IMG/VR virus record: IMGVR_UViG_3300025478_000017
Span: 1-24,799 of that record
DNA from: a virus
Direction: 5' to 3' (one strand)
DNA length: 24,799 nucleotides
Shown here: positions 1,808 through 24,799 of the stretch, piece by piece
Position numbering within the stretch: the stretch's first letter is position 1
How the letters are laid out: every line of letters starts with the position of its first letter
Notes under the pieces: model-generated
The model's input: only the letters and a program-made list of their open reading frames with translations
Told to the model about the DNA's origin: nothing
Databases searched by the model: none
Position numbers and translations under genes: made by a program

Positions 1808-3280
1808 CTATCCTAATGCAATTGCCATAGCGACGGCTTCTGCCGTCTTGCTATCTAGCATTGTCTGTAAATTAACCACCTCTGAAATTGAGTGAGTAGC
1901 TGGGTGTGTGTAGTTAGTGGCACTTTCTTCAATATTGTCTAATTTCGTCTGCAATGTAGTTGTGAAGTTCTTTTGCGTTAATCCATTGTCGCCCACTGAA
2001 TAAGTTGTATCAGTGTAGTTGCCAGCATGTAAGTTTGTTGCGCCTTGGTCTGCTGTCCAATCAATATGCTCATTAGCCACAAAGTCACTTAAACCATCAT
2101 GAGTCACTGATACTGCGCCTGTATCCCCATTAACACTTGATACTGCATCAGTAGGAGTTGCTAGCAACGTGTAGTCAGCCATAGTTCCTGCTGTACCCCC
2201 GTTATGGCAGTAAGTCTTATTCTCATCAGAGCGAACAACAATATCACCTTCCTGAGCCGTTAAGGCTAGTTGAGTTACTTGATTAGTCGCTGTCTGTACT
2301 GATGTTAAAGCTAAAGGGCTTGCTGAAAAAACAGTGCCTGCTAGTGTAAGACCTGTGCCTGCGGTATATGTCGTGTTAGTATTTGTATCAGTTGAAGATA
2401 TTGTGCCGTCACCAGCGATAGTCACATTAGTTCCCGCTGTTAAAGCAGAAACAACATTAGTTGTGTCTGTCACATCAGCGCTTGCCTCAACACCATCAAG
2501 CTTAGTTTTAAGCGTGGTAGTGAAATTCTTTTGAGTCAATCCGTTATCACCAACCGAATAAGTAGTATCAGTTGAACTAACCGTACCCCCCGCTGAAATT
2601 GCAACATTAGTGCCTGCTGTCAATGAAGCTACAACATTAGTTGTGTCCGTCACATCAGCGCTATCTTCAATACCTGATAACTTAGTCTGTTCAGCATCAC
2701 TGAATTCATTAGTATCTGTATTAGACTCGTAAGCTGTTTTAATCTCACTGGCAGACTGGTCAGCTGTAGCACTATCCTCAATATTCCCTAACTTAGTCTT
2801 TTCAGCGCTAGTGAAGCTCTTCTCCGATAACTCACCATCTTGTACAGAATAAGTTGTGTTATTATCAGGTATGGTAACTACATCTGTTGACCCATCTCCT
2901 CTCGTAAGAGTGATTGTATGGTCACTAATCGTCATTGCATCCGTTGAAGAGCTTAAAGACTGATTAGACGTTTTATTTGTTTTAGTACCTAGAGCTGTAG
3001 TAACAGTTGAAGCATAAGAAGCATCATCATTAATTGCTTCTGCCAGCTCATTTAGAGTATCTAAGGCTCCAGGAGCTCCTCCTACTAAGTCTGATATCTT
3101 CGTATCTATTGCAGACTCTGAAATAGTAAGAGTAGGTAAATTATCCCAAGGGGCAATACCGTCACCTATTTTTAGTATACTATTGCTAGTATCTTGTCCT
3201 ATCTCTCCTTGAGAGAGTATCGGATTTACAGAAGCCCAATTTGCTGCTGTGTCTCTTCTAAATTGAATTTTTGCTGCCAT
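1808..3280 (-). CDS. Repetitive tail fibre / stalk protein
   Basis: 490 residues. The N-terminus (IQFRRDTAANWASVNPILSQ, then GEIGQDTSNSILKIGDG) is a virion-attachment-like motif shared in outline with the two fibres upstream. The middle is repetitive. The stalk unit 'F-T/S-x3-x-x-KL-x-x-I/V-E-x-SA' occurs four times (for example FTSAEKTKLGNIEDSA and FSDAEQTKLSGIEDSA). The unit DVTDTTNVV...LTAGTNV...SSTDT occurs twice, and a TTYSVGDNGLTQKNF block occurs twice. Later segments include AQEGDIVVRSDENKTYCHNG and SSVNGDTGAVSVTHDGLSDF, both familiar from phage fibres. The end carries NYTHPATH and a short helix to residue 490. The composition suits a long trimeric fibre shaft rather than an enzyme. 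The start overlaps the stop of the upstream gene by one base, and its Shine-Dalgarno site lies in that gene's last codons. It ends in TAG, unlike most neighbours. Confidence 0.83.
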   Translation of the reverse strand: MAAKIQFRRDTAANWASVNPILSQGEIGQDTSNSILKIGDGIAPWDNLPTLTISESAIDTKISDLVGGAPGALDTLNELAEAINDDASYASTVTTALGTKTNKTSNQSLSSSTDAMTISDHTITLTRGDGSTDVVTIPDNNTTYSVQDGELSEKSFTSAEKTKLGNIEDSATADQSASEIKTAYESNTDTNEFSDAEQTKLSGIEDSADVTDTTNVVASLTAGTNVAISAGGTVSSTDTTYSVGDNGLTQKNFTTTLKTKLDGVEASADVTDTTNVVSALTAGTNVTIAGDGTISSTDTNTNTTYTAGTGLTLAGTVFSASPLALTSVQTATNQVTQLALTAQEGDIVVRSDENKTYCHNGGTAGTMADYTLLATPTDAVSSVNGDTGAVSVTHDGLSDFVANEHIDWTADQGATNLHAGNYTDTTYSVGDNGLTQKNFTTTLQTKLDNIEESATNYTHPATHSISEVVNLQTMLDSKTAEAVAMAIALG

Positions 3281-4710
3281 TATGCGGCGCCTCCATCATA
3301 TTGTAAGTCGCTTGAAGTGAAAACTGTACTAGCAGCACCTCCGTCTAAGTTTATATCTATAAGTGTAATAGGGCCGAAGCTAACTATAATTATATCATCC
3401 CCTACCGCAGCTGCTTCTACCAAAGTTATAGAAGTGCCATTGTCCGCTGTATAATCCGCTTTAGGTAATCGGAACCCGTTCAAATATACAGCTTCTTTGT
3501 CTATAGCGTAGTCTGCCGTAAACACGGTCTGCCCAGCAGTAGCCACAAAGTCTGTTTGAGTAAGTACTGCGTTACTTCCGGAGTATACCTCGTTCACTAT
3601 AATGGAAATAACGTCCCCGTCAGTAGTAGTAATCCCTACTAAAGATACTGTAGTGCCTAAGGTAGCCGTGAAATCTTCATCTGCTAGCCTAAGTCCATTG
3701 AAGAACACTGCTGTTACGGTGCTTGCGCCATAAGGTACACCAAAGCTTGTTTGCCCTGAAGTAGTTGAGTCTAGTATAAACTCGTGTTGAGTGGATACGG
3801 AGGATGAAGTATCCCCACCACCTCCTCCAGATACTGGGAACCACTGAGAAACTCCGGCAGAGTCTTGAATATATTTATATAGTAAAGAGTCGTCGGTATC
3901 CCACCACTCATCTCCTAAAGTAGGGTTCGCTGGTTGAGAAGTACTAAAGCTATTAGTATGCCCGTCCTCTAGACCTATGATTAATTGCTTTGGAGTAGTG
4001 CTACTGTCGGTAGTAATAACAACGTTATTACCTGCCACAATTTGTAGACTTTCTTCTCCTGAAGGAGATAGTGTAGTTTGTCCAGCAATAAGCAGGTCTT
4101 TCCAATGAGAACCTAAAGATACCTTAACGGCTCCACCTGTTAAATCTGTGACATTAAAGCCAGTTCCATCGTCAAATCGTATCTCGGATACATCAGTTAT
4201 TACATTAGTACCACTAACATCTTTGACCGTTAATGTCGATGGAAGATTTTGCCAAGAAGTTGTAGTACCATTTGTTGATAAAAATTTACCACTATTAGAT
4301 GACTGTGCGGGAAGTCCTCCACCACTGGTAGCAAAAGTATGCCCTACATGTTCTGATATAGTGTCTGCAACAAATGTCTTGTTTGCAGCGTCGTATGAAA
4401 TAGTAACATCATGAAAGTGGCTAGCAGCAGTACTAGAACGTACTGCTATAGTAGTTCCGTCCTTTATTAAATTGTAAGCTTGTTGTCCTGTAATTGACAC
4501 AGAATGAACGTGCCCGTCAAAATTAGTTAGCTGGAATACTTCTCCAATACTAATTTCAGATATACTAGGGGTTACTCCGTCTGTTTGATGGATAAATATT
4601 TTTCCATCATGCGTATTGAGCCCTATCTCCCCCAGCTCTAATTGAGTTGTAGAAGGTATATTGTGTTGAACGGCAGATCTAATGTGCTTAATCAGATTTT
4701 GTCTTGCCAT
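3280..4710 (-). CDS. Modular tail fibre protein with paired HxH module and two tandem NG-type repeats
   Basis: 476 residues, first gene of the promoter-proximal fibre unit. Residues 20-50 carry the fibre N-terminal motif LELGEIGLNTHDGKIFI. Residues 66-113 are a paired His-x-His module (H67/H69 and H98/H100) that aligns with one in the L-like protein. Residues 258-292 hold QPANPTLGDEWWDTDDSLLY, the 'P-x-x-GD-x-W-x-DT' motif of many phage fibres. A Gly5 hinge at 295-299 is followed by two related modules at about 318-378 and 390-447. Each has an FNGLRL or LNGFRL strand, a D-[FY]-TA turn and a GD-x-I strand. The C-terminus has two DGG motifs (456-458 and 472-474), ending YDGGAA. It probably forms a trimeric fibre or adaptor. 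AGGAG lies 6 bases before the ATG. Receptor binding is inferred; metal binding by the His pairs is only a hypothesis. Confidence 0.83.
   Translation of the reverse strand: MARQNLIKHIRSAVQHNIPSTTQLELGEIGLNTHDGKIFIHQTDGVTPSISEISIGEVFQLTNFDGHVHSVSITGQQAYNLIKDGTTIAVRSSTAASHFHDVTISYDAANKTFVADTISEHVGHTFATSGGGLPAQSSNSGKFLSTNGTTTSWQNLPSTLTVKDVSGTNVITDVSEIRFDDGTGFNVTDLTGGAVKVSLGSHWKDLLIAGQTTLSPSGEESLQIVAGNNVVITTDSSTTPKQLIIGLEDGHTNSFSTSQPANPTLGDEWWDTDDSLLYKYIQDSAGVSQWFPVSGGGGGDTSSSVSTQHEFILDSTTSGQTSFGVPYGASTVTAVFFNGLRLADEDFTATLGTTVSLVGITTTDGDVISIIVNEVYSGSNAVLTQTDFVATAGQTVFTADYAIDKEAVYLNGFRLPKADYTADNGTSITLVEAAAVGDDIIIVSFGPITLIDINLDGGAASTVFTSSDLQYDGGAA
4372..4515 (-). repeat. Paired His-x-His module, fibre copy
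   Basis: Codes for residues 66-113 of the 476-residue fibre. It begins GHVHSVSITGQQAYNLI, continues with a Thr/Ser strand and returns to SHFHDVTISYD before a Phe. The second copy in this window lies in the L-like protein at 18437-18586. The two match in order, spacing and His positions. Confidence 0.65.
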
Positions 4711-9845: not shown

Positions 9846-12800
9846 TTATTGTACTCCTCGTGCGTTCCAAGTTAATTTTCCTTCAAAAGATTTTATAGCC
9901 CCAGTAAGGGTGCCATAGTCACTTTTATCTAATATGTACACATAAAAGAAGGATGGTGTAGGCACATCTTCGAAATCATGTATAGTGAACCTAGAAGGTA
10001 CTACTGACCCATCTAGTTCTGTTGTGTAGGCTGTATTTAAGTAATTAATATCCTTAAAATCTTTAAGGAAAAAGACCCTAAATACCTTCATACCCTCTTT
10101 TGTGCTGTGCCACTCGCCTCCTTGGGTGTTACAAATCACTTCGTTATTATCTGGTTGGCGAGAAATACCTGCGCCATCTGTATAATAAAAAGGAGCTCCG
10201 TCCTCTCCACTGCCGTAGACGTTACACAGCCCCGAATTTGTGTCAACAGTCTCGGACCCAGAGTCCGTGACCATCTTAAGGCTTAGCTTAAGCTTGAACT
10301 CGTCCAAGGCCATTAAGTCGTTATTACCCCCGTCAGTATTAAATACCGTATGAGCTTTCACATACCTAAAAGTGTGGAGTGCCATAGTGGAGGTACCCAC
10401 TACTTTAGTCCATCCTGTCTCATTTGTTAGTACTCCAGCATCGGGATCAGTATTACTATAATATAAAGTAGTCGAAGGGGTCACCGCCCCGTGTAGTACC
10501 CTAGTATTCATAGCTGCTTGAATAGAGCTCGGGTCTAGTGTAACACCGAAATCCCACTTCTGCCAGAAACTAGCAGATGAGGTACCTGGTTCTAGGTAGA
10601 ACGGGTACCCTGCAGAAACCTGCGACTGAGGACTAGTAAAACTATTATTAACAAAATGCTCTCTCCATGTCTCCACCGTATTAACCGGTAGGAACGCGGA
10701 AGTAGCTCCTTTATGTATACTAGTAGTTTCAATAGTAGTTACTTCTGTAGGGTAACTAGCGGGATTATCTTCATCTAAGGTAGAGTTTCTGTTTTCAATA
10801 AGTATGAAGTCAGGCGGCTCAGATACGATAGCTACTGTACTTAGAGCAGGAGACATATTACCTGCGCTATCTACGGACCTAATCCAATACTTAAACGTCC
10901 CTCCTATAGTTTCCATATGAGATATAAATAAGCCTGCCGTAGTAGACACAGGCTCTAAAACGCCCCATTCAGCCTCGGTAGACGAGCTACAAGAAGGTGA
11001 ACCATCTGGGCACCTTTTTACTTCATAGCTGTTAATATCTAGTTTTGCTACATTAGAGGCACTTGGCCATCTAAGTAGTACGTTGTTATCCACTACTTTA
11101 ATATTTAGAGTGGCAGGAGCATCCGGTACAGGTACATCCACAGCTATATCTGTAGCAACCCCGTAGTTGCCTGCGGAATCTTTAGCTACAATAGTAAAGG
11201 TTACAGGACTACCCGAATGCCAAGTAACAGGAGTAGAATATGAAGTAGAGTACGTAGTCTTTAGGACAGCCCCCGTACTGTCTCTAATCTCATATAAGTC
11301 TACAGGTAAGTAGCCTCCGGCGGAGTCCCCCGCATGTACAGGAGCTGTCCAACTTAATAGAGTCATTATACCAATAAAAGAATTAGATAAGCTCTGTACT
11401 TGTCCCAGTCTCTCTACTTCTGCTAATACCCATCCCGTTCCCTCTGCTTGCACAGAGTGTACGGGCTCCTCTGAGTAGTTACCTGCAGAGTCTATCGCTC
11501 GGACAAAGAATCTTGTATCATCAATATTATTTGCAGGGTCATAAGGTCTCCAGTCCACTCGTAATGTGTGGTCTAGTGTCAAAGCCCTGGTTATAGCCGA
11601 GTTAGCCGTGTTGTCTAGTCTCTTGGCCCAGGTTGCTCCACTTCTTAGTTCGTACTCTACAATATCTAAATCTGCGGAAGGGGCAGACCATTTAATGGTA
11701 GTATTCCCTCCTGAGATACTATAAGTTACTCCATAAGGTATTGCAGGATTATTAATAGTAATATCTATACTATGGTTGGTACCTTTATTTCCTGCGGAAT
11801 CTATTGAGGTTACCCAGTACCTTCTAAACTGTCCTCCACCCCAGGTTACCTTTTCAGAATACCTAGTAGAAGACTTACGAGGGGATAGTATAGTGGCAGA
11901 ACCATACGTGTCTCCCTTTTTAATTTCCCAGAATTTAACAGGAAGTAAGTAATCTACATTATTATCGTAGTCCGCCTCCCCTGCCGTCTGTACTCTCCAA
12001 TTCGTTACTTGATCAGGCCCTACTAAAGTGTAGGCCAAATCCTTTATATCTACAGGGTTACGTATCTCTACAGAGTGTTTCTGCCAAGGGCTAAGGTTCC
12101 CAGCACTATCTATTGCTCTAACCCAGAAGTCTCTAGAGGGCTCTCCCGAAGAAGGGCCCCAAGTTACGTTCTCGGAATGAGTAGTAGTCTTAATAAGACC
12201 AACTAAGGTGGCAGAGTCTCCTGTAAGGCCTCCTTGCCTGATTTCATAGTTGGAAATAGGTAAAGACCCTATGGTAGGGCTTACCCAAGAAAGAACTGCC
12301 GCACCCGTCGAGTCCAAAGTATGAACTACAGGATTAGTGGACCAGTCTGGGCTCTCCACTAAAATGTCTATACTGGCTGGTGCGCCATAATTTTCTGCCA
12401 TATCTTCGGGAGCTACCCAGTACTTTCTAGTACCTCCCCAGCCTACATTAATGCTAATGCTGGGCGCCCCTAGGTTGTGTATTCGGGCGGCGTAATTAGA
12501 TGACCAAGTATCTCCATATCTAATGTCATATTCATTAATTTTATAAAAGCTATTTACTCCAGGTACCCAACTAATAACAACATTTGTACCTACGAAAGAG
12601 TAGGTTAAAGAAGTAGCAGGGTCTGGAACTGTGACTTCAATAGAAGCTTCTGCATCATACGTAGAGTACACCCCACTTGTATCTTTTGCCCTCAATAGGA
12701 AGTTATGTGTTCCCGCTTTTAAGTACCAACCCCCCTCTGCTCCAAATGATAGAGAGTTTTCTTTTAGTAATACGGTATTAGAGGCGTCTCCCCAAGTACT

Positions 12801-15800
12801 CCCTTCTTGTATCTCATAGTACCTTAGGTCTAAATCCTTAATAGGCTCCCAGTCCAGTCTAGTACCAGTACTTTTATCTGTGGTTATAGTGAACTTAGAA
12901 GAGTCTGTAGTCCACACGTTGCCGTCTGACACCCATTGGCCTACACAGGCGTTAGATACCCAACTATGGTTTAAATCACCACACCTAGTTTCGTCTGAAA
13001 CGATGGCTCCGGTTGCAGGGTCTATAGGACTTTGTGCAGTACACAGGGCCTCACTATTTAGTATAGAAGAGCCATCTAACGTACTACATCTACCTTGGCC
13101 CTCACAATCAGACTGTGTTCTAGCGTACGTTAATCCACTACAATACTTGGTAACGGATGAAGGCGGTTTAGCTAGTCCTAGTACCGTTTTTGATACCTGC
13201 ACATACATAGAAACGTTATTAGTTATAATACTCTGAGCTCTTACTTTTACCTCGTAGGTACCTTTAGGAGCGTCTAATACTTCTGTGTTTAAAAATTCGG
13301 TGTCTGGCAAGTCTACCCAAGTACCTTTATTAACACGATACTTTACAGAGTACAAGCGTATATAAGGGTAATCTGTTGGAGCCTGCCATTGAATAATAAC
13401 TTTATTACGTACTTGACCATCTGACCCTACGTACGAAGTCTCGTACACGTCTAGGTCCGCTGGAGGCGGTGTAGCTACTAGAATATTAGGAACATTGCTA
13501 ATATTTCTCTCGTCTAGCTCACTAAAGTCTAGTCCCTCTTCTATTATGCGGTACTTATCCTCATGGTACTCCATGGCAAGTACTTCATACTCATTCTTTT
13601 TTGACTCTTTAACCCCGACAGTGCGCCATACCTGCGCGTCTACTACACCTGTCTCTTCTAACAGCCACATATAATCTGCTTTAGGTTCGTTAGTCAAAGA
13701 ATGATGGTACTCTATACTATCAGGAGCCGAGGCAAAAGACGTGACATCTACATGCACCTCATGGTCTGCAACTATATTAGTAATAGTGGCGGTCGCTCCT
13801 GTAGTTTTATTAGTTACAGTTCGTCCCAGGTACTTACTAGAAAAAGACATCTTGCTATCGTATATTGAGAAAGGTGTCCCAGGTACTCCTGTACCCCCCT
13901 CAGACGCACTAATTTCGGTATCTAAGTCTATGTCTTCAGTAACTAAACTGTCTATAGTTACAGGGTAATTCTCTACGAATAAATAAGGAGCCCACTGGCC
14001 TCCGTCACTTATACAAACTTCCTTAGCTTCAAGACCTGCTACAGGAGCGGTAGGGTAATAAAGCTCACCTGCGTGCGGGTGAGCCACCCCGGGAGAAGAC
14101 TCCTGAGGCTTTAAACACGCTTTATCTGTGTGTATTACATTTAATGTATAGTTTGCTCCGGGGAGCATCTGTACAGCACTATCTAATATAATATTTGTTT
14201 TGGTGGAGCCCGACTTAATTCGCCCTCCGTATCTATTGCCAGAGCGAGTAGGGTCCTGTACTTTTATTAGGTCTCCCGGACGTAGTACTGCAGCTTCTAA
14301 GCCAGACTTGAAACTTAACGTCTCTGTCTCTAGAGTATCGGTTAGTAGAGTCCAAGTACCTATTCGGTGTGCTTGCCCCCTAGAAGTACACCCAAAAGAT
14401 GTAATGTCTGTCTTACGTATACCGTATCTATCTACTCCTTCCCTGTCCTCAACATACTCTACTTTTCTTCTATAGAAGTCGTCAGGGTCGTTCCAGTTCA
14501 CCAAAGCCACGGTCTTTCGTGCCTTCTGTGAAGTACCTGAGTAAGAGAACTCTCCTCCTAATACGTTAGCGGAGGTAAATAATTGAGTAGGCTCTTTTGG
14601 AGAATCTTGTACAGGCACTAATTGCCCATTAGCCCAGTAAGATAGCCCTCTAAATGCGAAGGCTAAATCTTGTATTACTTTTATAGCCTCTTGTTGGTCC
14701 TGTATGTACACGTTACACGCAAACCTAGGCTCCAACAAGGTAGCACCTGCAGCGTCTTTAAATCCGGATTTTACACCTACAAAGTCTCCTGCATCATCGA
14801 CTGCGTCGCAGTATCTTGCAATCTGGTATAGGGCCCATTTATCAATTTGCGTACCTCTAATGTACTCCCCGAGTCCGTAACGTTTATTGGTAATTATGTC
14901 ATAGTAGATCCACGCAGGGTTGCTGGTCCACATTACATTATTGAAAGTGCCGTCCCAGTGCCCCGAATATAGGTTGTCCCCCGCTGCTAAAGTGTCTGGA
15001 TCATATCCGTGGTAGTTTGTAGGAACCTTACACTTTATGCCTCGGATATGGTAAGCTCTCTTAGGTATACTACTGAACTGCCTAGCATTAATTTGAGTAG
15101 CTATCAAAGCAGTATGCGGGTATCTTAATTTGTTATCAATAATACGGGTAAAACTTTCCCAGTAAATAGTATCATTTAAAGCACTATCACTAGCTTCGTC
15201 CGTTAGCCTAAGTATCTTTATAGTAACTTCAGTGCTATAAATCGTCTTATCTAAGTTAATTCTGTGTTGTCTAGTATACTTTGACGTGGTCTTTCCATCG
15301 AAAGAAGCGGATACAACTTTATGCCAGTTACTATCATTATTATACATAAGGTAGATTTCATAGTCTACCTTTGCACCGTGTATATCGCCATTTTCCTTAT
15401 CTTGAGTCGTCAACTGATTACAAGAGATAGTTACTGCTATAGCATCTAGGTCTCCATTATATATAGTAATAGGAGGAGCGGTTCCCACTCCTTTTTTAAT
15501 TTCAGCTTGCACAGCTTCCTGACCCCTAATACTGCCCGCATCCGGAATCACCTCTTGATCAGTTGTTCCCATAACTGAGTATGTCTTAACATTATCAAAG
15601 TTATAAGTACCGTTAGTATTCATCAGAGGGGTCTCATTATAGAAGATACTCTCATGGCCGGCTACTAGACCTACTATTTCTCCCTCAGAAACTGCGTCTA
15701 AAACCTGGGCGTACTGTACAGAATGGAGAGTATCTGGGTCCTCAACTGCCTGTCGAGGAGACCCTCCGCCTTTTCCTCCACCACCTGAGCCTCTTAATAC

Positions 15801-15815
15801 GTTATTACTGGCCAT
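9846..15815 (-). CDS. J: Central tail protein / host-specificity protein J-like
   Basis: 1989 residues, against 1132 in lambda J. The N-terminal half matches the J family: a Gly-rich start, then VLDAVSEGEIVGL near residue 38, GHWDGTF near 287, NPAWIYYDIITNKRYGLGEY near 300, DKWALYQIARYCD near 327 and EPRFACNVYI near 365. These parts form the tube-closing hub. An Fn3-like domain covers about 780-890. A Cys-rich insert of about 70 residues follows (13155-12930). Seven diverged Fn3-like repeats run to about 1660, and a C-terminal receptor-side region with a jelly-roll-like part ends NARGVQ. J contacts the outer-membrane receptor and closes the tail. The start is set by GGAGGA five bases upstream, inside the overlapping end of I. 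The large C-terminal expansion is unusual for lambda but common in environmental phages. Receptor identity is not visible. Confidence 0.95.
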   Translation of the reverse strand: MASNNVLRGSGGGGKGGGSPRQAVEDPDTLHSVQYAQVLDAVSEGEIVGLVAGHESIFYNETPLMNTNGTYNFDNVKTYSVMGTTDQEVIPDAGSIRGQEAVQAEIKKGVGTAPPITIYNGDLDAIAVTISCNQLTTQDKENGDIHGAKVDYEIYLMYNNDSNWHKVVSASFDGKTTSKYTRQHRINLDKTIYSTEVTIKILRLTDEASDSALNDTIYWESFTRIIDNKLRYPHTALIATQINARQFSSIPKRAYHIRGIKCKVPTNYHGYDPDTLAAGDNLYSGHWDGTFNNVMWTSNPAWIYYDIITNKRYGLGEYIRGTQIDKWALYQIARYCDAVDDAGDFVGVKSGFKDAAGATLLEPRFACNVYIQDQQEAIKVIQDLAFAFRGLSYWANGQLVPVQDSPKEPTQLFTSANVLGGEFSYSGTSQKARKTVALVNWNDPDDFYRRKVEYVEDREGVDRYGIRKTDITSFGCTSRGQAHRIGTWTLLTDTLETETLSFKSGLEAAVLRPGDLIKVQDPTRSGNRYGGRIKSGSTKTNIILDSAVQMLPGANYTLNVIHTDKACLKPQESSPGVAHPHAGELYYPTAPVAGLEAKEVCISDGGQWAPYLFVENYPVTIDSLVTEDIDLDTEISASEGGTGVPGTPFSIYDSKMSFSSKYLGRTVTNKTTGATATITNIVADHEVHVDVTSFASAPDSIEYHHSLTNEPKADYMWLLEETGVVDAQVWRTVGVKESKKNEYEVLAMEYHEDKYRIIEEGLDFSELDERNISNVPNILVATPPPADLDVYETSYVGSDGQVRNKVIIQWQAPTDYPYIRLYSVKYRVNKGTWVDLPDTEFLNTEVLDAPKGTYEVKVRAQSIITNNVSMYVQVSKTVLGLAKPPSSVTKYCSGLTYARTQSDCEGQGRCSTLDGSSILNSEALCTAQSPIDPATGAIVSDETRCGDLNHSWVSNACVGQWVSDGNVWTTDSSKFTITTDKSTGTRLDWEPIKDLDLRYYEIQEGSTWGDASNTVLLKENSLSFGAEGGWYLKAGTHNFLLRAKDTSGVYSTYDAEASIEVTVPDPATSLTYSFVGTNVVISWVPGVNSFYKINEYDIRYGDTWSSNYAARIHNLGAPSISINVGWGGTRKYWVAPEDMAENYGAPASIDILVESPDWSTNPVVHTLDSTGAAVLSWVSPTIGSLPISNYEIRQGGLTGDSATLVGLIKTTTHSENVTWGPSSGEPSRDFWVRAIDSAGNLSPWQKHSVEIRNPVDIKDLAYTLVGPDQVTNWRVQTAGEADYDNNVDYLLPVKFWEIKKGDTYGSATILSPRKSSTRYSEKVTWGGGQFRRYWVTSIDSAGNKGTNHSIDITINNPAIPYGVTYSISGGNTTIKWSAPSADLDIVEYELRSGATWAKRLDNTANSAITRALTLDHTLRVDWRPYDPANNIDDTRFFVRAIDSAGNYSEEPVHSVQAEGTGWVLAEVERLGQVQSLSNSFIGIMTLLSWTAPVHAGDSAGGYLPVDLYEIRDSTGAVLKTTYSTSYSTPVTWHSGSPVTFTIVAKDSAGNYGVATDIAVDVPVPDAPATLNIKVVDNNVLLRWPSASNVAKLDINSYEVKRCPDGSPSCSSSTEAEWGVLEPVSTTAGLFISHMETIGGTFKYWIRSVDSAGNMSPALSTVAIVSEPPDFILIENRNSTLDEDNPASYPTEVTTIETTSIHKGATSAFLPVNTVETWREHFVNNSFTSPQSQVSAGYPFYLEPGTSSASFWQKWDFGVTLDPSSIQAAMNTRVLHGAVTPSTTLYYSNTDPDAGVLTNETGWTKVVGTSTMALHTFRYVKAHTVFNTDGGNNDLMALDEFKLKLSLKMVTDSGSETVDTNSGLCNVYGSGEDGAPFYYTDGAGISRQPDNNEVICNTQGGEWHSTKEGMKVFRVFFLKDFKDINYLNTAYTTELDGSVVPSRFTIHDFEDVPTPSFFYVYILDKSDYGTLTGAIKSFEGKLTWNARGVQ
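10825..12900 (-). repeat. Seven diverged fibronectin-III-like repeats in J
   Basis: Each unit of about 92-106 residues has an inner 'Y-E-[IL]-[RKQ]-x-G' strand and ends with '[FW]-[WV]-x-x-x-DSAGN' or a relative. The DSAGN positions lie near residues 1231, 1337, 1440, 1545 and 1648. Degenerate forms (DTSGV and DMAEN) are near 1045 and 1137. The regular spacing supports domain duplication followed by divergence. Such runs act as spacers or as weak polysaccharide contacts in phage tail proteins. Confidence 0.8.
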
Positions 15816-16449
15816 CTGTTTCCTCCGTAGTTACTCCGGCGCTAATAAGAGCGCCACCAACTATTAATTCTCCGTAACACAAAGGTATTGGTAGTCCTTG
15901 TGCAGAAGTATTTACTGGGCCATTAAAGTTGTAAGACTGCCCGTTGTTTACCTCACTAGTCTGAGGCTTGTTTGGCTTAGGGGCCAGCATCTGCGCTATC
16001 CCTGACATCATTAAACTCATTCCCGCTTGAAGAGCAAAAGAGGACAAAGATACCGCAGTACTTGCCCCAACACCAAAGGTACCCATGCCGACTGCCCAGG
16101 TACTAGCAAATGTTGATCCAGTGCCCACGCCAGTAGCTAGCCCTGCCAAATAAGGTGCAAATACAATAAGAGCCCCTAGTAGTATCATGCCTACTCCAGA
16201 ACTCTTAGAGCCGCTAATAATAGGTATAAACTTTAGGTCTCTCGAACCTAGAGGATCCATTAAGTGCTGCTGCCCTAAGTATTCTTCTGCAGAGGTAACG
16301 TGGTACTCTCTGTCCATAATGTACTCGTAAAACCCCGGCATATTGGCCTCTATAGCCTTTGCTGCTTCGTGGGGGTTTGACACGTCTAACGTCCACTCCC
16401 TCCCGAACTTCTCTCCTAAGTCCCCGTATAATGTTACTTTTCTTAACAT
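15805..16449 (-). CDS. I: Tail assembly protein I-like (tail tip)
   Basis: 214 residues. Residues 1-80 look like a beta-grasp (ubiquitin/ThiS-like) domain: a first strand RKVTLYGDLGEKFG, a helix HEAAKAIEANMPGF, and a closing strand DLKFIPIISG. Residues 85-155 are a Gly/Ala/Ser-rich hydrophobic stretch (MILLGALIVFAPYLAGLATG and on) that may cross or insert into a membrane or pack in the tail tip. The C-terminus NTSAQGLPIPLCYGELIVGG followed by ALISAGV is the conserved I-family tail. The gene overlaps K by seven bases upstream and J by eleven bases downstream. In lambda, I is needed for tail-tip assembly. The neighbouring JAMM-bearing K and this ubiquitin-like fold form a known phage pairing. 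Its final residues are encoded by the bases that supply the strong ribosome site of J. Confidence 0.92.
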   Translation of the reverse strand: MLRKVTLYGDLGEKFGREWTLDVSNPHEAAKAIEANMPGFYEYIMDREYHVTSAEEYLGQQHLMDPLGSRDLKFIPIISGSKSSGVGMILLGALIVFAPYLAGLATGVGTGSTFASTWAVGMGTFGVGASTAVSLSSFALQAGMSLMMSGIAQMLAPKPNKPQTSEVNNGQSYNFNGPVNTSAQGLPIPLCYGELIVGGALISAGVTTEETDGQ

Positions 16450-17171
16450 AATGATTTGTGCCTTAATACATGTGTGGTGTTCTTTTGGTATGCCTCTCCA
16501 TATATATCTTTTGTAGAGAGCCTCCCCATTAAATGGTGTAGTATCATATTATTACCTAAGTAGATAGCTAAGTGGTTAGAAACATTAGATAGTACCTTCA
16601 TTAATATTACATCATGTTTCTCAATCTTTGTGTGGTCTTTAACCTCTATAAAATCCCCCTCAGTCCAGCTATCCCAGTTGTCTGCATAGTAGTCTTTGCC
16701 TGTTGCCCACCAATCGTACTCAGAAGGGAACATCTTGTACTTAACACCGAATTCTTGCTCATAGTAATCTATGAATAAGGTTTGGCAATCTAACACCCCG
16801 TAAGCAAATACTCGCCCTGTTAAAGGGGCAGAGTAGGCTTCCGGGAGTAACTTCGACCACTCTTTTGCGGGCCAAGAGATTATGTGCCAAGGGAGTCCTG
16901 ACCTACTGCAGGAAACCTTGTCTGCCTCACTAGGGGTGGAGGACGCATTTGGGTGGCTATGTATAACAGCCAGTATTTCTCCTAAGTCTTCAGCTTTTGC
17001 GTAATCATAAGGGTCTAGTACAAAGTCCTGCTCCTCATGGCCTTCTGCTATATTTTTACACTTAAAGTACTTTTGCTTACCCTTAATATTTAGCAGCAGA
17101 CCACAACACTCTTGGGGAAACGCGTACTCAGCATGCTCTTCTATAGCCTCTTTGGTTTTATCTGATATCAT
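16443..17171 (-). CDS. K: Tail tip protein K-like: JAMM metalloprotease plus NlpC/P60 peptidase
   Basis: 242 residues with two peptidase domains, the usual K architecture and length. The N-terminal domain has the intact JAMM signature: E21 in PQECCGLLL, then H71-x-H73-x7-S81-x2-D84 (HSHPNASSTPSEAD), which would bind zinc. The C-terminal domain has the NlpC/P60 nucleophile C129 in LDCQTLFIDYYEQEFG. The general base is probably H200 in NHLAIYLGNNMI, with H212 or H213 as the likely third residue. The NlpC/P60 part may cut peptidoglycan during DNA entry, and the JAMM part may process a tail protein; both roles are inferred from the families. The start overlaps the stop of L as ATGA, with a weak ribosome site, so translational coupling is likely. 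The end overlaps the start of I. No domain appears damaged. Confidence 0.95.
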   Translation of the reverse strand: MISDKTKEAIEEHAEYAFPQECCGLLLNIKGKQKYFKCKNIAEGHEEQDFVLDPYDYAKAEDLGEILAVIHSHPNASSTPSEADKVSCSRSGLPWHIISWPAKEWSKLLPEAYSAPLTGRVFAYGVLDCQTLFIDYYEQEFGVKYKMFPSEYDWWATGKDYYADNWDSWTEGDFIEVKDHTKIEKHDVILMKVLSNVSNHLAIYLGNNMILHHLMGRLSTKDIYGEAYQKNTTHVLRHKSLC

Positions 17172-19471
17172 CTTCGTAGTCCCAGCCCTACTCCAGGGAA
17201 GCCCCCGTAAGGTAGTATAGCCTTGTTTAAGTTCCAGCAGCTTCCTGTGGAACTATTCCAGTAGTGGTTTTCAAGCACACAAGCTGCTTCAGTTGTTGCT
17301 GAAACATAAGGTTCTGCAAACCTCAGCTCACAGCTTGTAAGCTTCTTAGCGCAGTAGTCCTTTGTTGCATCAGAAGTAGGCTCATCATCTTTAGTATAGT
17401 ACTGGGTGCCCGTGTAACCACACTCTCCTCCTCTATACTTCCATAAGCAAGTATTCTGTATAATCTCTCTTTTAGGTAGTTTAATTCCTTCCACGTCCCA
17501 AGCAGGGGCTAACTCGAATTCTATTAGTATCTTATTTTCTGCCACCTTGCGGTCTATAAAGTATATATCATCTTCGAAAAACGCCTCAGGGTCTGAAGTA
17601 TTGATAACTAGATTATTATAGTACGTTAAAGTGTGCCCGTCTGTGCCCGAGATACTACGAGTACGTAAGTCACCTCTAGCCCAGGTCTGACTTACTTGGA
17701 AGTTATCAACTAGTATTTCATCATTAGATCCTCCCGCGCCTCCAGATGCAAATATCTTGAAACGGGTTCTAGAAGCTCTGCTCCTATCTGCCAAATATAA
17801 GGTTGTACTAAAATTTAAGAATCCGGAAGACGTAGGTGAAGTGTATATGTACCCCGGCATAGTATACCCTGCTGCTACGTACAAATCAGACACTAAAGCA
17901 TACGATGCCTCTGTAGTCCAGGTGCCGTCTCCATTATCTGTCTCTACAACTAACTTCTGAGTACTGCCTGTAACTATTCTGTAATCGAACTCTATGCTAT
18001 ACTCTCTATTAGCAAAAGTGTTAACGTCAATAAAGGCCCAATCTAATATGCCCGAGGCTTCCACTCTTAAACACGTATCGTGGGAGGTGCTGCTTGAGTC
18101 GTATACTGAGGTGAGTGTTGTACCGGCACTCCCGTACCATGAAGTGGTTGCACCTGTAAAGTTGCTATTAACCCCCTCGACTAGCTTCAACTCTTCCGAG
18201 CCTTCATACATATATTCTAGTACTATATTATGGGCATGAGCAGTAGGACGAGGGAGTAATACAAGAACAGCATCCAAACGGTATCCTGCTCCCCCACTTA
18301 TAGTAGTATAACTTTTCAAAGCCCCTTCAGGGGTTAGTTCTATGGAGTTAAATGACGCAGGTACTAAACTACTAGGGTAGTACGCGTAGTGAGGGACTTC
18401 TCCCGCCATAGGGGTATGATTAGTAGTAAATAATATAGTAAATAGTTTGGTAACGTTACTCCACTGCACGGATACATTATGAGAATGGCCCACAGAACTA
18501 CTAGTTACGGCGGATATAGTTAGCCCAGGGGTTTCTAATAAGGAGTATAGCTCTTCGTCTGTAAGTAGTACCTCGTGTGCGTGAGGGACGGAGGCGGGCC
18601 CTACTACTGCTACCCCGTCTGATAGCAAAGGAGGCTGTGCAACCTCTAAATAGACTCCGTCAGCATAATTATACCCCATACCTTGGGTAGCTTCTGCATT
18701 ACTAATTTCAAGTATAGACCCCGTACCATCAGTCTGAAGAATAGGCTGGGACACTAAAGAGATGCTGTTAGTACTTGCGGTTGTGGTAATTTGGGCACCA
18801 TCGCCTAAAGCACATACTTCAGCATTAGTAAGGGTTACTTTATGCGAGTGGTTATGTGTAGCCTCTGGCTCAAGTCTTAACCCCTCAGGGGCGGCTATCT
18901 CTTTCCACTCAGTATTATGGTTTACATACCAAGTACCCCCAGCAGCCGCACACGTAGCACAGTCGTACTCCCCCCAGCTATTCCCAAAGCTAAGGCAGTC
19001 AGACTTGCTATCTTGGTAGGCTGTATCAGTACAAGTCCCTGCCACTACAGTATTATCCGCTAGTTTACAGAAGTTATCTAAGAACCTGCCATAGGTTCTT
19101 TTTCTGTTGACCTGTACACCCACTAAATCATTATAATCTCTAGTTAGCCCCGATATCACCCCTCTAGCATCTCCAGACGCCGTAGTGGTGATATTGGCTA
19201 AACTCATACTTGGTCTAGGTATTTGTTTAGACCCTGTGGCCTCAAAACCCTTAACCTCTATCGGATAAGGGTAGTATACGTCTCCTTGCCATATGATTTC
19301 TCTGTCGATATTATTTGTACCAGCGTGAAATCGCAGTATATCTGTATTCCCTATAGAAGGTACAGAGCCTACATCCACAGTAAATAGCTCAATTAAAGCA
19401 TCCGTATTAAGGGACGACGATATTTGAGATATAGTGGACCTCTCCGCGATTTGTACTAAGGATTTACTCAT
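17168..19471 (-). CDS. L: Minor tail protein L-like with very large insertion
   Basis: 767 residues, against about 230 in lambda L. The N-terminus (residues 22-135, for example ELFTVDVGSV and FEATGSKQIPRPSMSLANIT) and C-terminus (LPKREIIQNTCLWKYRGGEC, then GYTG, then LPYGGFPG) are clear L parts. The four cysteines C675, C684, C707 and C714 match the iron-sulfur-binding cysteines of the family. Between about 135 and 630 lies an insertion: a Cys-rich part (135-183), His-x-His motifs at 206-210, 297-299, 329-331 and 412-414, and a jelly-roll-like module at 430-598 opening NSNFTGATTSWYGS. A small extra Cys/Trp element (729-746) sits just before LPYGGFPG. The gene overlaps M by four bases and K by four. 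L forms part of the tail tip. The insertion is probably exposed and may bind glycan or metal; that is inference. Confidence 0.93.
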   Translation of the reverse strand: MSKSLVQIAERSTISQISSSLNTDALIELFTVDVGSVPSIGNTDILRFHAGTNNIDREIIWQGDVYYPYPIEVKGFEATGSKQIPRPSMSLANITTTASGDARGVISGLTRDYNDLVGVQVNRKRTYGRFLDNFCKLADNTVVAGTCTDTAYQDSKSDCLSFGNSWGEYDCATCAAAGGTWYVNHNTEWKEIAAPEGLRLEPEATHNHSHKVTLTNAEVCALGDGAQITTTASTNSISLVSQPILQTDGTGSILEISNAEATQGMGYNYADGVYLEVAQPPLLSDGVAVVGPASVPHAHEVLLTDEELYSLLETPGLTISAVTSSSVGHSHNVSVQWSNVTKLFTILFTTNHTPMAGEVPHYAYYPSSLVPASFNSIELTPEGALKSYTTISGGAGYRLDAVLVLLPRPTAHAHNIVLEYMYEGSEELKLVEGVNSNFTGATTSWYGSAGTTLTSVYDSSSTSHDTCLRVEASGILDWAFIDVNTFANREYSIEFDYRIVTGSTQKLVVETDNGDGTWTTEASYALVSDLYVAAGYTMPGYIYTSPTSSGFLNFSTTLYLADRSRASRTRFKIFASGGAGGSNDEILVDNFQVSQTWARGDLRTRSISGTDGHTLTYYNNLVINTSDPEAFFEDDIYFIDRKVAENKILIEFELAPAWDVEGIKLPKREIIQNTCLWKYRGGECGYTGTQYYTKDDEPTSDATKDYCAKKLTSCELRFAEPYVSATTEAACVLENHYWNSSTGSCWNLNKAILPYGGFPGVGLGLRR
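18437..18586 (-). repeat. Paired His-x-His module, L copy
   Basis: Codes for residues 296-345 of the L-like protein. It begins PHAHEVLLTDEELYSLL, passes a Thr/Ser strand and returns to GHSHNVSVQWSN before a Phe. The fibre copy is at 4372-4515. Half-copies lie nearby in the same protein at 18797-18859 (HNHSHKVTLTNAEVCAL) and 18212-18244 (AHAHNIVLEY). Confidence 0.65.
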
Positions 19472-19824: not shown

Positions 19825-22800
19825 TTAAATTTCCGAAAGTATTCCACCAGGTCTCTTTTCTTCCATAAGAACCTGTTGTACTTGTCCTGCAATCATATCG
19901 CCTAAAGCTTCTATGTCGCCCCCGTTATCCTTACTGGAAGAAGACTCAGCCTTCGCAGTACCTTGTTCCATATTGATGGTGACAGCTACATTATTGTACA
20001 CTTCCCCACCTGAACCCCCTGGAGGGGTATTCTGTATAACTGGAATAGACTTACCGTCTGGTAAAGGTACAATTGCTTCATTGTGCTTACCTTCCCCTAC
20101 TAAACCTAAAGTAGGTTTATTTACTAAACCTCCATTAGCGAAAGCTTTGAAGCCTCCAGCAGCAACTCCGCCATTTGCGAACATTGCCCCTACTAACAGG
20201 TCTACTCCGGTATCTACCGCTTTACTCATCAATACATTACCAATGCTAAAAGCGATGCTGGATAGCATTGTCTTCCACTCAAACTTACCAGTTCTAAGAG
20301 CTTCGCCCAATGCCATTTTCATGCTACCAGCTGCAATACTATTTATCTGGGTCATCTCAATACCAAATTGATGAGTAAGTTTGCCAAAGTCTGAGTTATT
20401 CATCTTCCAGTCTCTAGCTCTTTTATCTCCTGCTGCTTCGTTGTCTTTTGCTTGTCTATTTAAAAAGTCAGTACCTGCAGCAGAATTATCTGCCGCATAC
20501 TTTTCCGCATCCTCTTTACTAAAGCCATTTCTTGAGGCGTCTCCTAGAAGCTCCGCTCTGCTAGTAGCTTGAGCTTCTATACTAGTAAGTATACTGTTTA
20601 AGGTTCTATAGCTATCAGCACTTATAGTAAGTTTCTCAGCCTCTGATATCTTACCATCCTCTCCTATACCTATTAAGAGTTTAGTGGTAGCTGCGTCTTC
20701 GCTTAGGTATCTTACCTGAGCCTCTGCTGCCGTATACAAGTCTTTAAATATAGCAGCTTTATCCGGAGATATATAAGCTTCTGGGTCTCCTCCCGCATAT
20801 TCAACTAACCCCGTGGAAGGGTTGCGAGTAGCTGAACCGCCTAAAGCTCTTAATAAAGCTTTTTCACTTTTATTAACATGAGCTAACTCAGTGTCGCCGT
20901 TGCGTCCTCTAGAAGCAAGTCCGCCATTTGCGAACCCGAACATTCCTTTAGTCTTAGAATACCCATTTTCTGCTTCTTCCGTCCAGTACTTATCAGCGTC
21001 TGGGCTAAGTAGTCTACCTAACTCGAAACCACCCCAACCTGCAAGTCCTACAAGTCCTACAGTGCCTCCCATGGTAGGCTTAGCGCCCATGAATGACCCT
21101 TGTAATCCGAAAGGCATTTTTCCAGCCTTCCACCATGCACCAGTACTTCCTTTAGAACCGAAGGCGCTTTCAAACATTCCGTTTGGTAACCACCCTTTAC
21201 CCATTCCTTTAGAGTTCATTAAAAATTCTGCGAATTTAGCCGCAGAAGCTCCAAGACCAAAGTTAGTCCAGTAATCCTGGTTAGCCTTGTTAGCGTCTTT
21301 ATCAATTCCCCACGTATTTTTGTAATTCTCATTAGCAGCTTTACCACCGTTAGAGAACTTCTTCATAGTTATAGGGTTAATACCTTTAGTAGGTACAGAA
21401 TCCATAACACTTTGCTGTTCTTCGTTAGACTCCATGTACCAGTCAATTAACTCTGCTATAGAGAGTCCGATACCTGCAGGACCTAGGCCCCACTTTAGGA
21501 ATGACTTACCGAATCTAGCTGCATTAGCTCGCATAGAAGGTCCGCTGCTTCTAGGGATACCTGCCCCTTTGAAAGGTAGCTGTCCTTGAGGGAACAAGTC
21601 TAGTTGACCTGTACCTCTATTAACATTAGCTAAATCTTTTACAAACTGTTTCTTCCACTTATCAGAGTATACATTCTTAGAGTCTACACCCGGTAACCCT
21701 GGTTGATGGCCTGCGCCTTTCAACCACTTCTGGTCAAAACCTTGGTTACTCTTAAACAACGAAGACTGTGTAGCTTTAGGCTTCCCGAAGGCACCTCTAG
21801 CTTCTTGTTCCCCTATAGTCTCAAGTACATTAACACCGTGCAACGCAGCCATAGACTTCCAACTATTAAGAGCCTGAGTCCCCCCGTTCACACGCTTATT
21901 AATACCGTATCCTTTCTTATCTGCAAACTTACTTCCAGTACTTGTTTCTAATGGGTCGATTTGACTAATGTTTGGGTTGGTATTCAGTAGCTTGTTTAGT
22001 AACTGTAGAGAGTTTGGACCCCCTTTAGGGGCGTTCATACTTATAGAAGTTACTTTAGTACCTGTCTTATCTAATGTGTAGGTTAAAGAACCTTTAACCC
22101 CATTCTTAGTGCCGGAGACTTCCCCTGCTCTCCACTTATCTGCAGGGTAATGTTGCATAGTTACACCTTTACTAAATCTACCGTCGAAGATAGCCTTAGC
22201 GGAGCGCATATTATACTTACCAGTAGGGCCGCCTTCTGAAAATCTAGGTACTCTATCTTCGTTAATTGCTTCGATTAGCCCTTGATGCTTCTTGGTCGCG
22301 GCTGCATTAATTACATACTCACCATTAGACAACCAAGCCGGAATCTTATCTTCTTTAGGACCGCCTGGTCCAGCGATGTGTCCACCTGCAGCAAAGGTAT
22401 TAGGCACTTTATTTGCCTTATCACCTAAGGTAGAGGTTACCCCCGCGCCTGTTGTAAGTTCTTTAAACTTATTGGAAAGTGCTAGTACCTCCATCCCCAG
22501 TGTTTTAAAAGGGTTTGCCAAGTCTGCAATAGCCGTAATGGTATTAGTTATACTACCGGAAACCTGTGGAGATAACCTGTGGTCTATAGAAGCCAATAAA
22601 GAAGCTGTAGTTACCAAACTCTTGGCACTTTCTTTTGCTCTATATAACTGCTCTGCAGCTATAGCTTCCGCCTTAGCTAGTTTATCCTTCTCGAAGTCGG
22701 ATAACATAGCCTGCTTAATCTCTGAAGCACCTTGATCAATGAGCTGGTCTCCCAGTCCTCTCCAAGTGTCGTTCCAAAACTCGTTGTACCCGTCTTCCCC

Positions 22801-24799
22801 GTATAAGCTGTTGTCCCCTTTTAGATTTTCTGCCATCCTGTCTATAGGGTCCAAGAAGGCTTCTTCCCACAAGTCTGCTGCGAAAGTAATGCTGTCTCTG
22901 AAGTCCTCCTGGAACTCCACAAATCTATAGTGCATTTCATCACTGAAAGCACTTCCTGCAGCAGAGGCGCTCTCTTTGCTAGTAAATACAGAGTCAGTTT
23001 TGTATACTTCTTTAGTTAGCTTGTGTTCGTCTTCGAAAGTATCTAAAATACGTTTACGATTTACTAAGAACAACTCCTGCTGCTCTAATTGTAGGGTGCT
23101 TAACTCTATCCCCGAAAGGGTCTTAGTGTTAAGGTCGTCCCCTGCCTTAACTATAGTATCCTTAACATTCTTTATCTTCTGTTCTATAGACAGGTACTTC
23201 TTCTGGTAAGAAGCTGTCTCTGCTAATTTCTTAATTGTAAGAGTATTAATACTGTTAAAGAACTCATACTCTTTTGAGGCAACGTCTAATGCTTTATCTG
23301 CCAAGGCACTCTCTGCCTCTCTCTGTGCGTTTAAATCAATATAAAGGCTTAGGTACTCTTTCTCTACTCGTAGCTTCTTCTGCTTTAAAGACACTATAGC
23401 TGCTTCTTTGGATAGAGAGTCCTGTAGCTCTTTGTTACCAGTTTCTTGTGCTAGTGAGTACTTTAACGATGTCTCCCACGCTGCTACTTCTAGCTTATTT
23501 GTTCTATCTTGCAGATCGTACCTGGTCTTCTGGCTATCAGTATGCAGGACTCCGAAGTCGTAGATCTCTTTGTGTAGGTCCGCAGTAGCACTGTAGTGGC
23601 CAGTTTCTTTCGCCATCTTATTACTTTTAACTTCTACGATCTCCCTCTCTTTAGCTAGACGTAAAATTTGCCCCTCTACCTTGTACTGTGCAAGGTATAG
23701 GTCTAGTTTTTTGGTTAGACGTGCTTCTTCAAACTGCAGGAATATTTGGCGATCCTGAGTCTGCTGAGCACTAGGTTTTTTGCCTCCAGTTTCTGCATAA
23801 AGTTTCTTCTTCCTGTTCTCAAAGTCAACTAAATCTTTTGCTGCTTTATTAGTATAGTCCTGGAAGGACTTAGTAGACCCGTGATTAGCTCTACTAATTA
23901 CGGCGTTCTCTTTTGAAACAGTCCCTGCAGCTTCTTGTGCTGCTAATAATGATCTGTCTAGCTCTAATTCTTTTGTCTTTATGTCTAAAGTGTTTTGGAA
24001 CGCCCTGTAATTCTTATTTAGAAGTATGTTGCTAAGGCCATGTAACTTGGCTTGCTCTGCTTGTATCTTAGCCCCAGACTTAAGGATACCTAGTCTGATC
24101 TCCTCTCTTTTTGCCTGGGACAGTTCCTTCGCAGGGTTTAGTAGAGATGCTTCAGCTAACTTCTTCTCGTGCTCTAGTTTTTTAATATTGGTGTTAACCT
24201 GTGCGTCTTCGTGTGTCATTTTCTCAGAAACACTTTGAGCAGACTCAAAAGGAGCGTAAATTTTTGAAAGTCTCCCTTGTTTAGCGGCTAAGTCATTAAG
24301 AGCTGAGTACTCTGCTCTTAGTTTAAATAAAGCCATCTGCAAGGCTTCTACAGCTACTTTTGCCTCGTTGTGCGTCTCAGCACCTTCTAGAGCTATAGAA
24401 AGCTTGCTTCCCTTCAACATACTATCTACGTGTTTTGCTAGACCTACCCAAGACTCGGTAAACTGCTGTAGATTTAACTTAGACAGAATAGTTTTTAGTT
24501 CCTTAGAATCTTTTGCAGCGTCTAACGCAGGTTTCAGTTTTGTGAAGTCTCGAAGAAGGAAGTTATCCTTAGCTACAATATTATTCTGGCTATCAAAAGA
24601 ACGCTTTATTAGCGCTTTAATATGCATAATATGCATGGCACCATTATTACTTTGGCTATATAGGTGCTCGGAGACCGCGTCTTTAATTATTTTTTTAGCC
24701 TCAGGGGTGTCTAAAGACGAAGCGGTGTCCCCCTTCAAGTTATACTTACTTTGGTAGTAAGAGGCGCCTTGTGATAACTCTACTTTCTTCTCTTCCTTA
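19825..24799 (-). CDS. H: Tape-measure protein H-like, 5' end outside window
   Basis: At least 1657 residues. The frame stays open through 20 codons before the TTG at 24738, so that TTG is not the real start and the gene continues beyond the right edge. Counting from 24738, residues 1-600 are charged and heptad-like coiled coil. Gly-rich 'F-[AS]-x-GG' motifs recur six times from about 785 on. The first is followed by DKIPAWLSNGEYVINAAATK; the last by LVNKPTLGLVGEGKHNEAIV and PLPDG, both tape-measure hallmarks. Hydrophobic segments (for example WGLGPAGIGLSIAELI and GGTVGLVGLAGWGGFELG) may help membrane passage. Residues about 833-950 look like a separate inserted domain. The protein should set tail length and enter the cell with the DNA. 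M, L, K and I follow without a gap. Confidence 0.93.
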   Translation of the reverse strand, partial: KEEKKVELSQGASYYQSKYNLKGDTASSLDTPEAKKIIKDAVSEHLYSQSNNGAMHIMHIKALIKRSFDSQNNIVAKDNFLLRDFTKLKPALDAAKDSKELKTILSKLNLQQFTESWVGLAKHVDSMLKGSKLSIALEGAETHNEAKVAVEALQMALFKLRAEYSALNDLAAKQGRLSKIYAPFESAQSVSEKMTHEDAQVNTNIKKLEHEKKLAEASLLNPAKELSQAKREEIRLGILKSGAKIQAEQAKLHGLSNILLNKNYRAFQNTLDIKTKELELDRSLLAAQEAAGTVSKENAVISRANHGSTKSFQDYTNKAAKDLVDFENRKKKLYAETGGKKPSAQQTQDRQIFLQFEEARLTKKLDLYLAQYKVEGQILRLAKEREIVEVKSNKMAKETGHYSATADLHKEIYDFGVLHTDSQKTRYDLQDRTNKLEVAAWETSLKYSLAQETGNKELQDSLSKEAAIVSLKQKKLRVEKEYLSLYIDLNAQREAESALADKALDVASKEYEFFNSINTLTIKKLAETASYQKKYLSIEQKIKNVKDTIVKAGDDLNTKTLSGIELSTLQLEQQELFLVNRKRILDTFEDEHKLTKEVYKTDSVFTSKESASAAGSAFSDEMHYRFVEFQEDFRDSITFAADLWEEAFLDPIDRMAENLKGDNSLYGEDGYNEFWNDTWRGLGDQLIDQGASEIKQAMLSDFEKDKLAKAEAIAAEQLYRAKESAKSLVTTASLLASIDHRLSPQVSGSITNTITAIADLANPFKTLGMEVLALSNKFKELTTGAGVTSTLGDKANKVPNTFAAGGHIAGPGGPKEDKIPAWLSNGEYVINAAATKKHQGLIEAINEDRVPRFSEGGPTGKYNMRSAKAIFDGRFSKGVTMQHYPADKWRAGEVSGTKNGVKGSLTYTLDKTGTKVTSISMNAPKGGPNSLQLLNKLLNTNPNISQIDPLETSTGSKFADKKGYGINKRVNGGTQALNSWKSMAALHGVNVLETIGEQEARGAFGKPKATQSSLFKSNQGFDQKWLKGAGHQPGLPGVDSKNVYSDKWKKQFVKDLANVNRGTGQLDLFPQGQLPFKGAGIPRSSGPSMRANAARFGKSFLKWGLGPAGIGLSIAELIDWYMESNEEQQSVMDSVPTKGINPITMKKFSNGGKAANENYKNTWGIDKDANKANQDYWTNFGLGASAAKFAEFLMNSKGMGKGWLPNGMFESAFGSKGSTGAWWKAGKMPFGLQGSFMGAKPTMGGTVGLVGLAGWGGFELGRLLSPDADKYWTEEAENGYSKTKGMFGFANGGLASRGRNGDTELAHVNKSEKALLRALGGSATRNPSTGLVEYAGGDPEAYISPDKAAIFKDLYTAAEAQVRYLSEDAATTKLLIGIGEDGKISEAEKLTISADSYRTLNSILTSIEAQATSRAELLGDASRNGFSKEDAEKYAADNSAAGTDFLNRQAKDNEAAGDKRARDWKMNNSDFGKLTHQFGIEMTQINSIAAGSMKMALGEALRTGKFEWKTMLSSIAFSIGNVLMSKAVDTGVDLLVGAMFANGGVAAGGFKAFANGGLVNKPTLGLVGEGKHNEAIVPLPDGKSIPVIQNTPPGGSGGEVYNNVAVTINMEQGTAKAESSSSKDNGGDIEALGDMIAGQVQQVLMEEKRPGGILSEI

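Follow-up and report, generated by a model that had tools for sequence, protein, structure and literature searches.

A His-pair module in two tail proteins of an uncultured phage, the tail-tip protein L and a fibre: probable bacterial relatives and a putative metal site

The known cases of His-x-His (HxH) pairs serving as metal sites in phage tails are a few trimeric needles. In T4 gp37 and in pyocin fibres, these pairs bind Fe(II) with six His at sites on the trimer axis (PMC6116203), and a role as iron ligands has already been proposed for the HxH fibres of marine phages (PMC11705849). The tip of the lambda tail contains a [4Fe-4S] cluster, whose ligands are Cys 173, 182, 205 and 212 of gpL, a protein that forms 3-fold trimers in the tip (PMC10721106).

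The stretch of DNA analysed here (the window) is a virus fragment from IMG/VR of 24,799 bases with a lambda-like tail cassette on its minus strand, comprising tape measure, M, L, K, I, J and several fibres (Table 1); longer records of 53,048 and 50,194 bases come from the same phage group. The tail-tip protein L is a member of PF05100 (E=9.5e-50, 169 bits against a cut-off of 25) and of TIGR01600 (E=5.7e-56, 189 bits against a cut-off of 70.75), and it matches phrog_18 at E=4.7e-72. Lambda gpL (PDB 8iyk chain L) aligns at E=2e-25 in two pieces, covering query residues 52-134 and 648-717. The original prediction of Fe-S cysteines in L is borne out by this alignment, in which the four Cys of its C-terminal domain correspond residue by residue, and with identical spacing, to the four cluster Cys of lambda gpL. 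Because the large insert of L falls between lambda gpL residues 116 and 146, it is likely to be exposed on the surface.

Table 1. Positions in the window of the features discussed in the text, with residue numbers of the encoded proteins.
Feature	Position	Strand	Residues and remarks
Tape measure	19825..24738	-	
Tail-tip protein L	17168..19471	-	767 aa; lambda L-type core interrupted by an insert of ~490 residues (roughly 135-624)
Half-copy A in L	18767..18865	-	203-235; H208, H210; HxH-strand-helix-strand
Degenerate GGxGY-type repeat, between A and B	18641..18715	-	253-277; from sequence and L058/L060 alignment
His module of L, copy B	18437..18586	-	296-345; H297, H299, H329, H331; PHAHEVLLTDEELYSLLETPGLTISAVTSSSVGHSHNVSVQWSNVTKLFT
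Third His element of copy B	18389..18418	-	352-361, NHTPMAGEVPH; H352, H361
GGxGY-type repeat, between B and C	18257..18325	-	383-405; SGGxGY identical in the three L proteins
Possible half-copy C in L	18200..18250	-	408-424; H412, H414; AHAHNIVLEYMYEG
C-terminal Fe-S domain of L	17312..17530	-	648-720; Cys675, 684, 707, 714
476-residue tail fibre	3280..4710	-	N-terminus phrog_29752, E=5e-4
His module of the fibre	4372..4515	-	66-113; H67, H69, H98, H100; GHVHSVSITGQQAYNLIKDGTTIAVRSSTAASHFHDVTISYDAANKTF
Third His element of the fibre	4339..4350	-	121-124, HVGH (EHVGH); H121, H124

Further Cys and His motifs are present in the cassette. Residues 135-175 of L (18947-19069, minus strand), which separate the core from the His insert, are Cys-rich, with C-x11-C-x11-C followed by CxxC. 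A similar segment is carried by L066 and L069, two L relatives that lack the His insert, while the corresponding segment of the relatives L058 and L060 has an additional HSH or HTH. J (9846-15815, minus strand) and the C-terminus of L (residues 727-749) contain small recurring Cys units, sC...gGxW...C in form, that may be disulfide knots or metal knuckles. K (16443-17171, minus strand) is a fusion of a JAB/MPN metalloprotease domain with NlpC/P60; it has the HSHP motif of the former, and one HxH in the cassette is therefore an established zinc-site motif. Two other fibres (316-1437 and 1808-3280, minus strand) have a THPATH motif, another His motif of phage tails, and the 490-aa fibre shows weak similarity to PTR (PF12789).

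The original prediction was that L and the 476-residue fibre, whose GenBank relatives are mostly from marine phages, share a module with two HxH pairs, and the coordinates it gave proved exact. The Smith-Waterman score of L against the fibre is 86, higher than any obtained with 500 shuffles of L (mean 48.7, maximum 83), and a translated search of the record with the fibre module as query recovers L at E=1.4e-6. As judged from sequence, the similarity is above chance, modestly so in the pairwise comparison and strongly by profile, and we hold with high confidence that copy B of L and the fibre share one domain. Two further half-copies had been proposed in L. The first, A, is recovered by a module profile (A3) at E=1.2e-5 over model positions 2-31. 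The second, C, has His that are invariant in three L proteins, but its profile match is not significant when it is taken alone, and shuffling with the His held fixed gave only marginal p values of 0.05, 0.03 and 0.017 in three orthologues that are not independent of one another. One hypothesis is that A and C could join to form a second full domain around B.

In addition to the two pairs, a third His element, absent from the original prediction, follows immediately on the Phe strand in every fibre and L relative seen. The equivalents of the L element are NHTSGPH in L058 and NHTTPH in L060, and those of the fibre element are GHTGH in L015 and L016 and NHASAH in L204; the viral proteins L133 and L176 carry an equivalent as well.

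Conservation of the His residues was assessed in two ways. In an alignment of 14 sequences, whose distant rows are 19-34% identical to the fibre, the four module His are the only invariant columns; the bacterial seeds in it were found with a pattern that demands HxH, which in part builds in the conservation of their His, while the L and fibre relatives entered without such a requirement. Across the L insert (residues 196-436), 9 of 11 His are invariant among three divergent L proteins that share it (the window, L058 and L060), compared with 45 of 230 other residues (Fisher p=3e-5), and these include the four His of copy B. L058 and L060 were retrieved through core peptides rather than His, so this comparison is free of selection bias. 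The module regions are otherwise among the least conserved parts of L, at 0.11-0.22 for A, the linker and B (0.19 for the module itself) versus 0.57-0.60 for the core. The His might be kept for a reason other than metal, such as folding, hydrogen bonding, pH sensing or contact with a host surface ligand, and this would be consistent with our finding no metal-binding fold and no metal-related neighbour gene. We consider it rather unlikely, since the remaining module residues are poorly conserved and strict HxH pairs at three places, in secreted bacterial proteins as well as phage tails, are a common arrangement of transition-metal ligands.

HxHxVxLT patterns occur in bacterial secreted proteins, and this was the starting lead for a wider search. 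A degenerate pattern requiring HxH identified 8 loci in genome contigs, 6 of which encode such secreted proteins; the other two, from Collinsella, are chance matches. Using profile A3, the domain was detected in 21 of 188 Myxococcota genomes and in 1 of 398 Pseudomonadota genomes, the latter being the seed genome, while for a later profile (A6) the counts were 9 of 80 genomes in the phylum to which one bacterial copy (L138) belongs and 2 of 5 in the phylum of another (L139). The bacterial copies are mostly from Myxococcota, with others in Krumholzibacteriota and Gemmatimonadota and one in Pseudomonadota. Each is ~110 residues long, has an N-terminal region resembling a TAT or lipoprotein signal, and carries three His elements in one chain.

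An HMM built from 21 bacterial sequences and no phage sequences matches the fibre once (residues 56-105, E=1.4e-7) and L twice (E=6.2e-12), the two L domains being A (203-235, iE 2.3e-6) and B (294-336, iE 2.6e-6). Among the matches listed, no other ORF of the window scored better than E=2.5, and the best shuffle reached E=0.12. The same HMM also matches L133 and L176. A motif as short as HxHxVxLT might arise many times over in tail proteins rich in beta structure, in which case the match to bacteria, spanning only ~45 residues rich in H, T, S and V, would be convergent. This explanation appears improbable given E values of 1e-6 to 1e-11, judged against shuffles with identical composition, agreement in the positions of helix and strands, and the intermediate sequences of L133 and L176. 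Homology of the phage module with the bacterial family is therefore our strongly preferred reading, and the module is not private to this phage. L133 (1-3090) and L176 (2-3580) are viral proteins of more than 1000 residues in which the His module is accompanied by GGxGY repeats and a cupredoxin-like stretch whose copper Cys is apparently missing.

In Pfam and NCBIfam, no model scored above its cut-off for the bacterial copies or for this region of L and the fibre; YmaF (PF12788) and PTR (PF12789) do not match L or the 476-aa fibre, and score at best 11.2 or 9.4 bits on the bacterial relatives, against a cut-off of 27. Short tblastn searches of GenBank phages with the module and the whole insert, and searches of phages and plasmids with an idealised module consensus, gave nothing at E up to 5, which low-complexity filtering may explain in both cases. 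The module profile matched 0 of 12 marine phage records, a degenerate pattern with spacing 31 found only the same phage group and chance frames in viral contigs, and a PDB sequence search with the phage profile and one bacterial copy yielded chance matches only. The gene neighbours of the bacterial copies name no metal pathway, and our literature search found no description of the bacterial family. One viral frame, L203 (9102-9208, a 735-residue frame), is very dense in His pairs (HTHTHP, HSHP, HKHP) and is unlike the module.

The phage and bacterial copies differ in the order of their elements. In the bacterial copies the third His element is N-terminal, as NHGH or NHxxPH(xL), and does not follow the last strand; the trailing phage element resembles this bacterial unit 1 (NHxxPHxL). 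When the bacterial profile is doubled, it reaches into the phage element better than column-shuffled controls do, in both the fibre (p=0.017) and L (p=0.033), and the same test on the sum of eight sequences gave a marginal p=0.042. These sequence results are suggestive, and no more than that, of a circular permutation between the phage and bacterial domains.

Structure prediction provides a view of how the elements may be arranged. The model of the bacterial L139 domain (11 sequences; pLDDT 87.9, pTM 0.74) has a b-b-a-b-b-a-b-b order, with strands at 3-8 and 15-18, a helix at 20-25, strands at 29-34 and 40-44, a second helix at 46-53 and strands at 58-64 and 71-74, and each HxH immediately precedes strand 2, 4 or 6 (15-18, 40-44 and 71-74). 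The AF2 model of the fibre module (14 sequences) is of moderate quality (mean pLDDT 63, with 68-82 in the core blocks; pTM 0.55) and has strands at 14-19 and 25-30, a helix at 32-41 and strands at 44-48, 58-64 and 69-74. The nearest solved folds, all of them weak matches, are antiparallel barrels; the best one (Z 5.2, rmsd 3.4 A over 66 residues) scores at a level regarded as common. Fold searches with both models found nothing above the level of common arrangements and no metalloprotein fold, which does not imply that the fold is new. If the strands alternate in direction, the three His pairs would lie at one end of the domain.

We propose a model in which copy B of L and the fibre would each form one small beta-rich domain made of three strand / x-H-x-H / strand repeats, the first of which is followed by a short helix, with the three His pairs at the starts of alternate strands. 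In an antiparallel meander the six His would point toward the same end, and could create one metal site within a single chain with ligands comparable to those of the hexa-His iron site that trimers form in other tail fibres and spikes. L would contain one full domain, one clear half-domain and one doubtful one in a surface insert adjoining the Fe-S domain, while the fibre would have a single domain close to its N-terminal end. The likely role of a bound transition metal would be to keep the tail tip and fibre locked in their folded state, possibly aiding adhesion. We lean slightly towards a six-His domain that binds metal; for the entire proposal, including the single-chain site and its locking role, the chances seem evenly balanced, and iron specifically would be a doubtful choice of metal.

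Alternatively, L and the fibre could be trimers, with every HxH pair joined on the three-fold axis by its equivalents from the other two chains; each pair would then hold one iron in octahedral coordination, as in T4 gp37 and R-type pyocin fibres. This arrangement has precedents in the 3-fold trimers of lambda gpL (PMC10721106), in the axial Fe(II) of trimeric HxH fibres (PMC6116203) and in the similarly modelled Alteromonas phage fibre (PMC11705849). On the other hand, gp37 is not matched by the module profile, a single chain of the small bacterial lipoprotein homologues contains all three pairs, and the module combines a helix with a compact repeat and is no needle; we regard an inter-chain site as unlikely. 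Returning to the single-chain domain, a broader scenario, which we put forward only tentatively and think will probably prove wrong, is that uncultured phages took up a bacterial six-His metal domain in circularly permuted form and placed it in both a hub next to an Fe-S domain and a fibre, such that one virion would have metal sites of one kind in two adsorption parts.

The original prediction went further in relating the module to the T4 long fibre and to the Ferrojan horse hypothesis, and we found no specific support for either link. The module profile finds its own seeds in the window but has no match in the T4 or lambda genome and gives negative bit scores on gp37, in which the eight HxH are spaced by 141, 32, 14, 37, 14, 9 and 9 residues. 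At the level of primary structure, the resemblance to gp37 is confined to the HxH motif, an analogy of ligands and not membership of a family. The Ferrojan horse hypothesis would have the module carry iron so that the phage exploits a host siderophore receptor. HxH motifs and an Fe-S domain do occur together in one tail, and the hypothesis has been proposed for marine phages with HxH fibres (PMC11705849). Yet nothing favours iron over other metals, we found no link to iron, a host or a siderophore receptor, iron that is buried or structural would not be presented to any receptor, and the bacterial lipoprotein relatives have no known iron role; we judge this explanation very improbable. Because its relatives sit in bacterial lipoproteins, the module is not something that phages invented in order to pirate iron.

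That fibres may contain metal has been proposed before; what is new here is a compact repeat common to a tail hub, a fibre and bacterial lipoproteins. If our proposal is correct, a compact mobile domain with the same ligands would represent a new way for tails to carry metal, as well as the first functional hypothesis for an uncatalogued bacterial family. At ~75 residues, confidently predicted and easily expressed, the domain is tractable.

Among known systems, lambda gpL shares with L the N- and C-terminal core and all four Fe-S Cys at the same spacing, but at 232 aa it lacks the ~490-residue insert that bears the His modules. T4 gp37 and R-type pyocin are similar in having HxH pairs in a tail fibre as probable transition-metal ligands, though theirs are single pairs on the trimer axis along a needle, whereas here three elements form a compact repeat with a helix. 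Alteromonas phage vB_AmeP-R22Y gp12 (PMC11705849) is, by its published description, a marine phage fibre with several HxH pairs and a proposal of iron ligands, and was modelled with gp37-like trimer sites. The secreted proteins of Myxococcota, Krumholzibacteriota and Gemmatimonadota (L138, L139 and L150) share the HxHxV-L-T-helix-strand-HxHxV arrangement, with reciprocal profile matches, and differ in their TAT or lipoprotein signal, their size of ~110 aa and an N-terminal third His element; the phage copies have three elements too, with the third trailing rather than leading.
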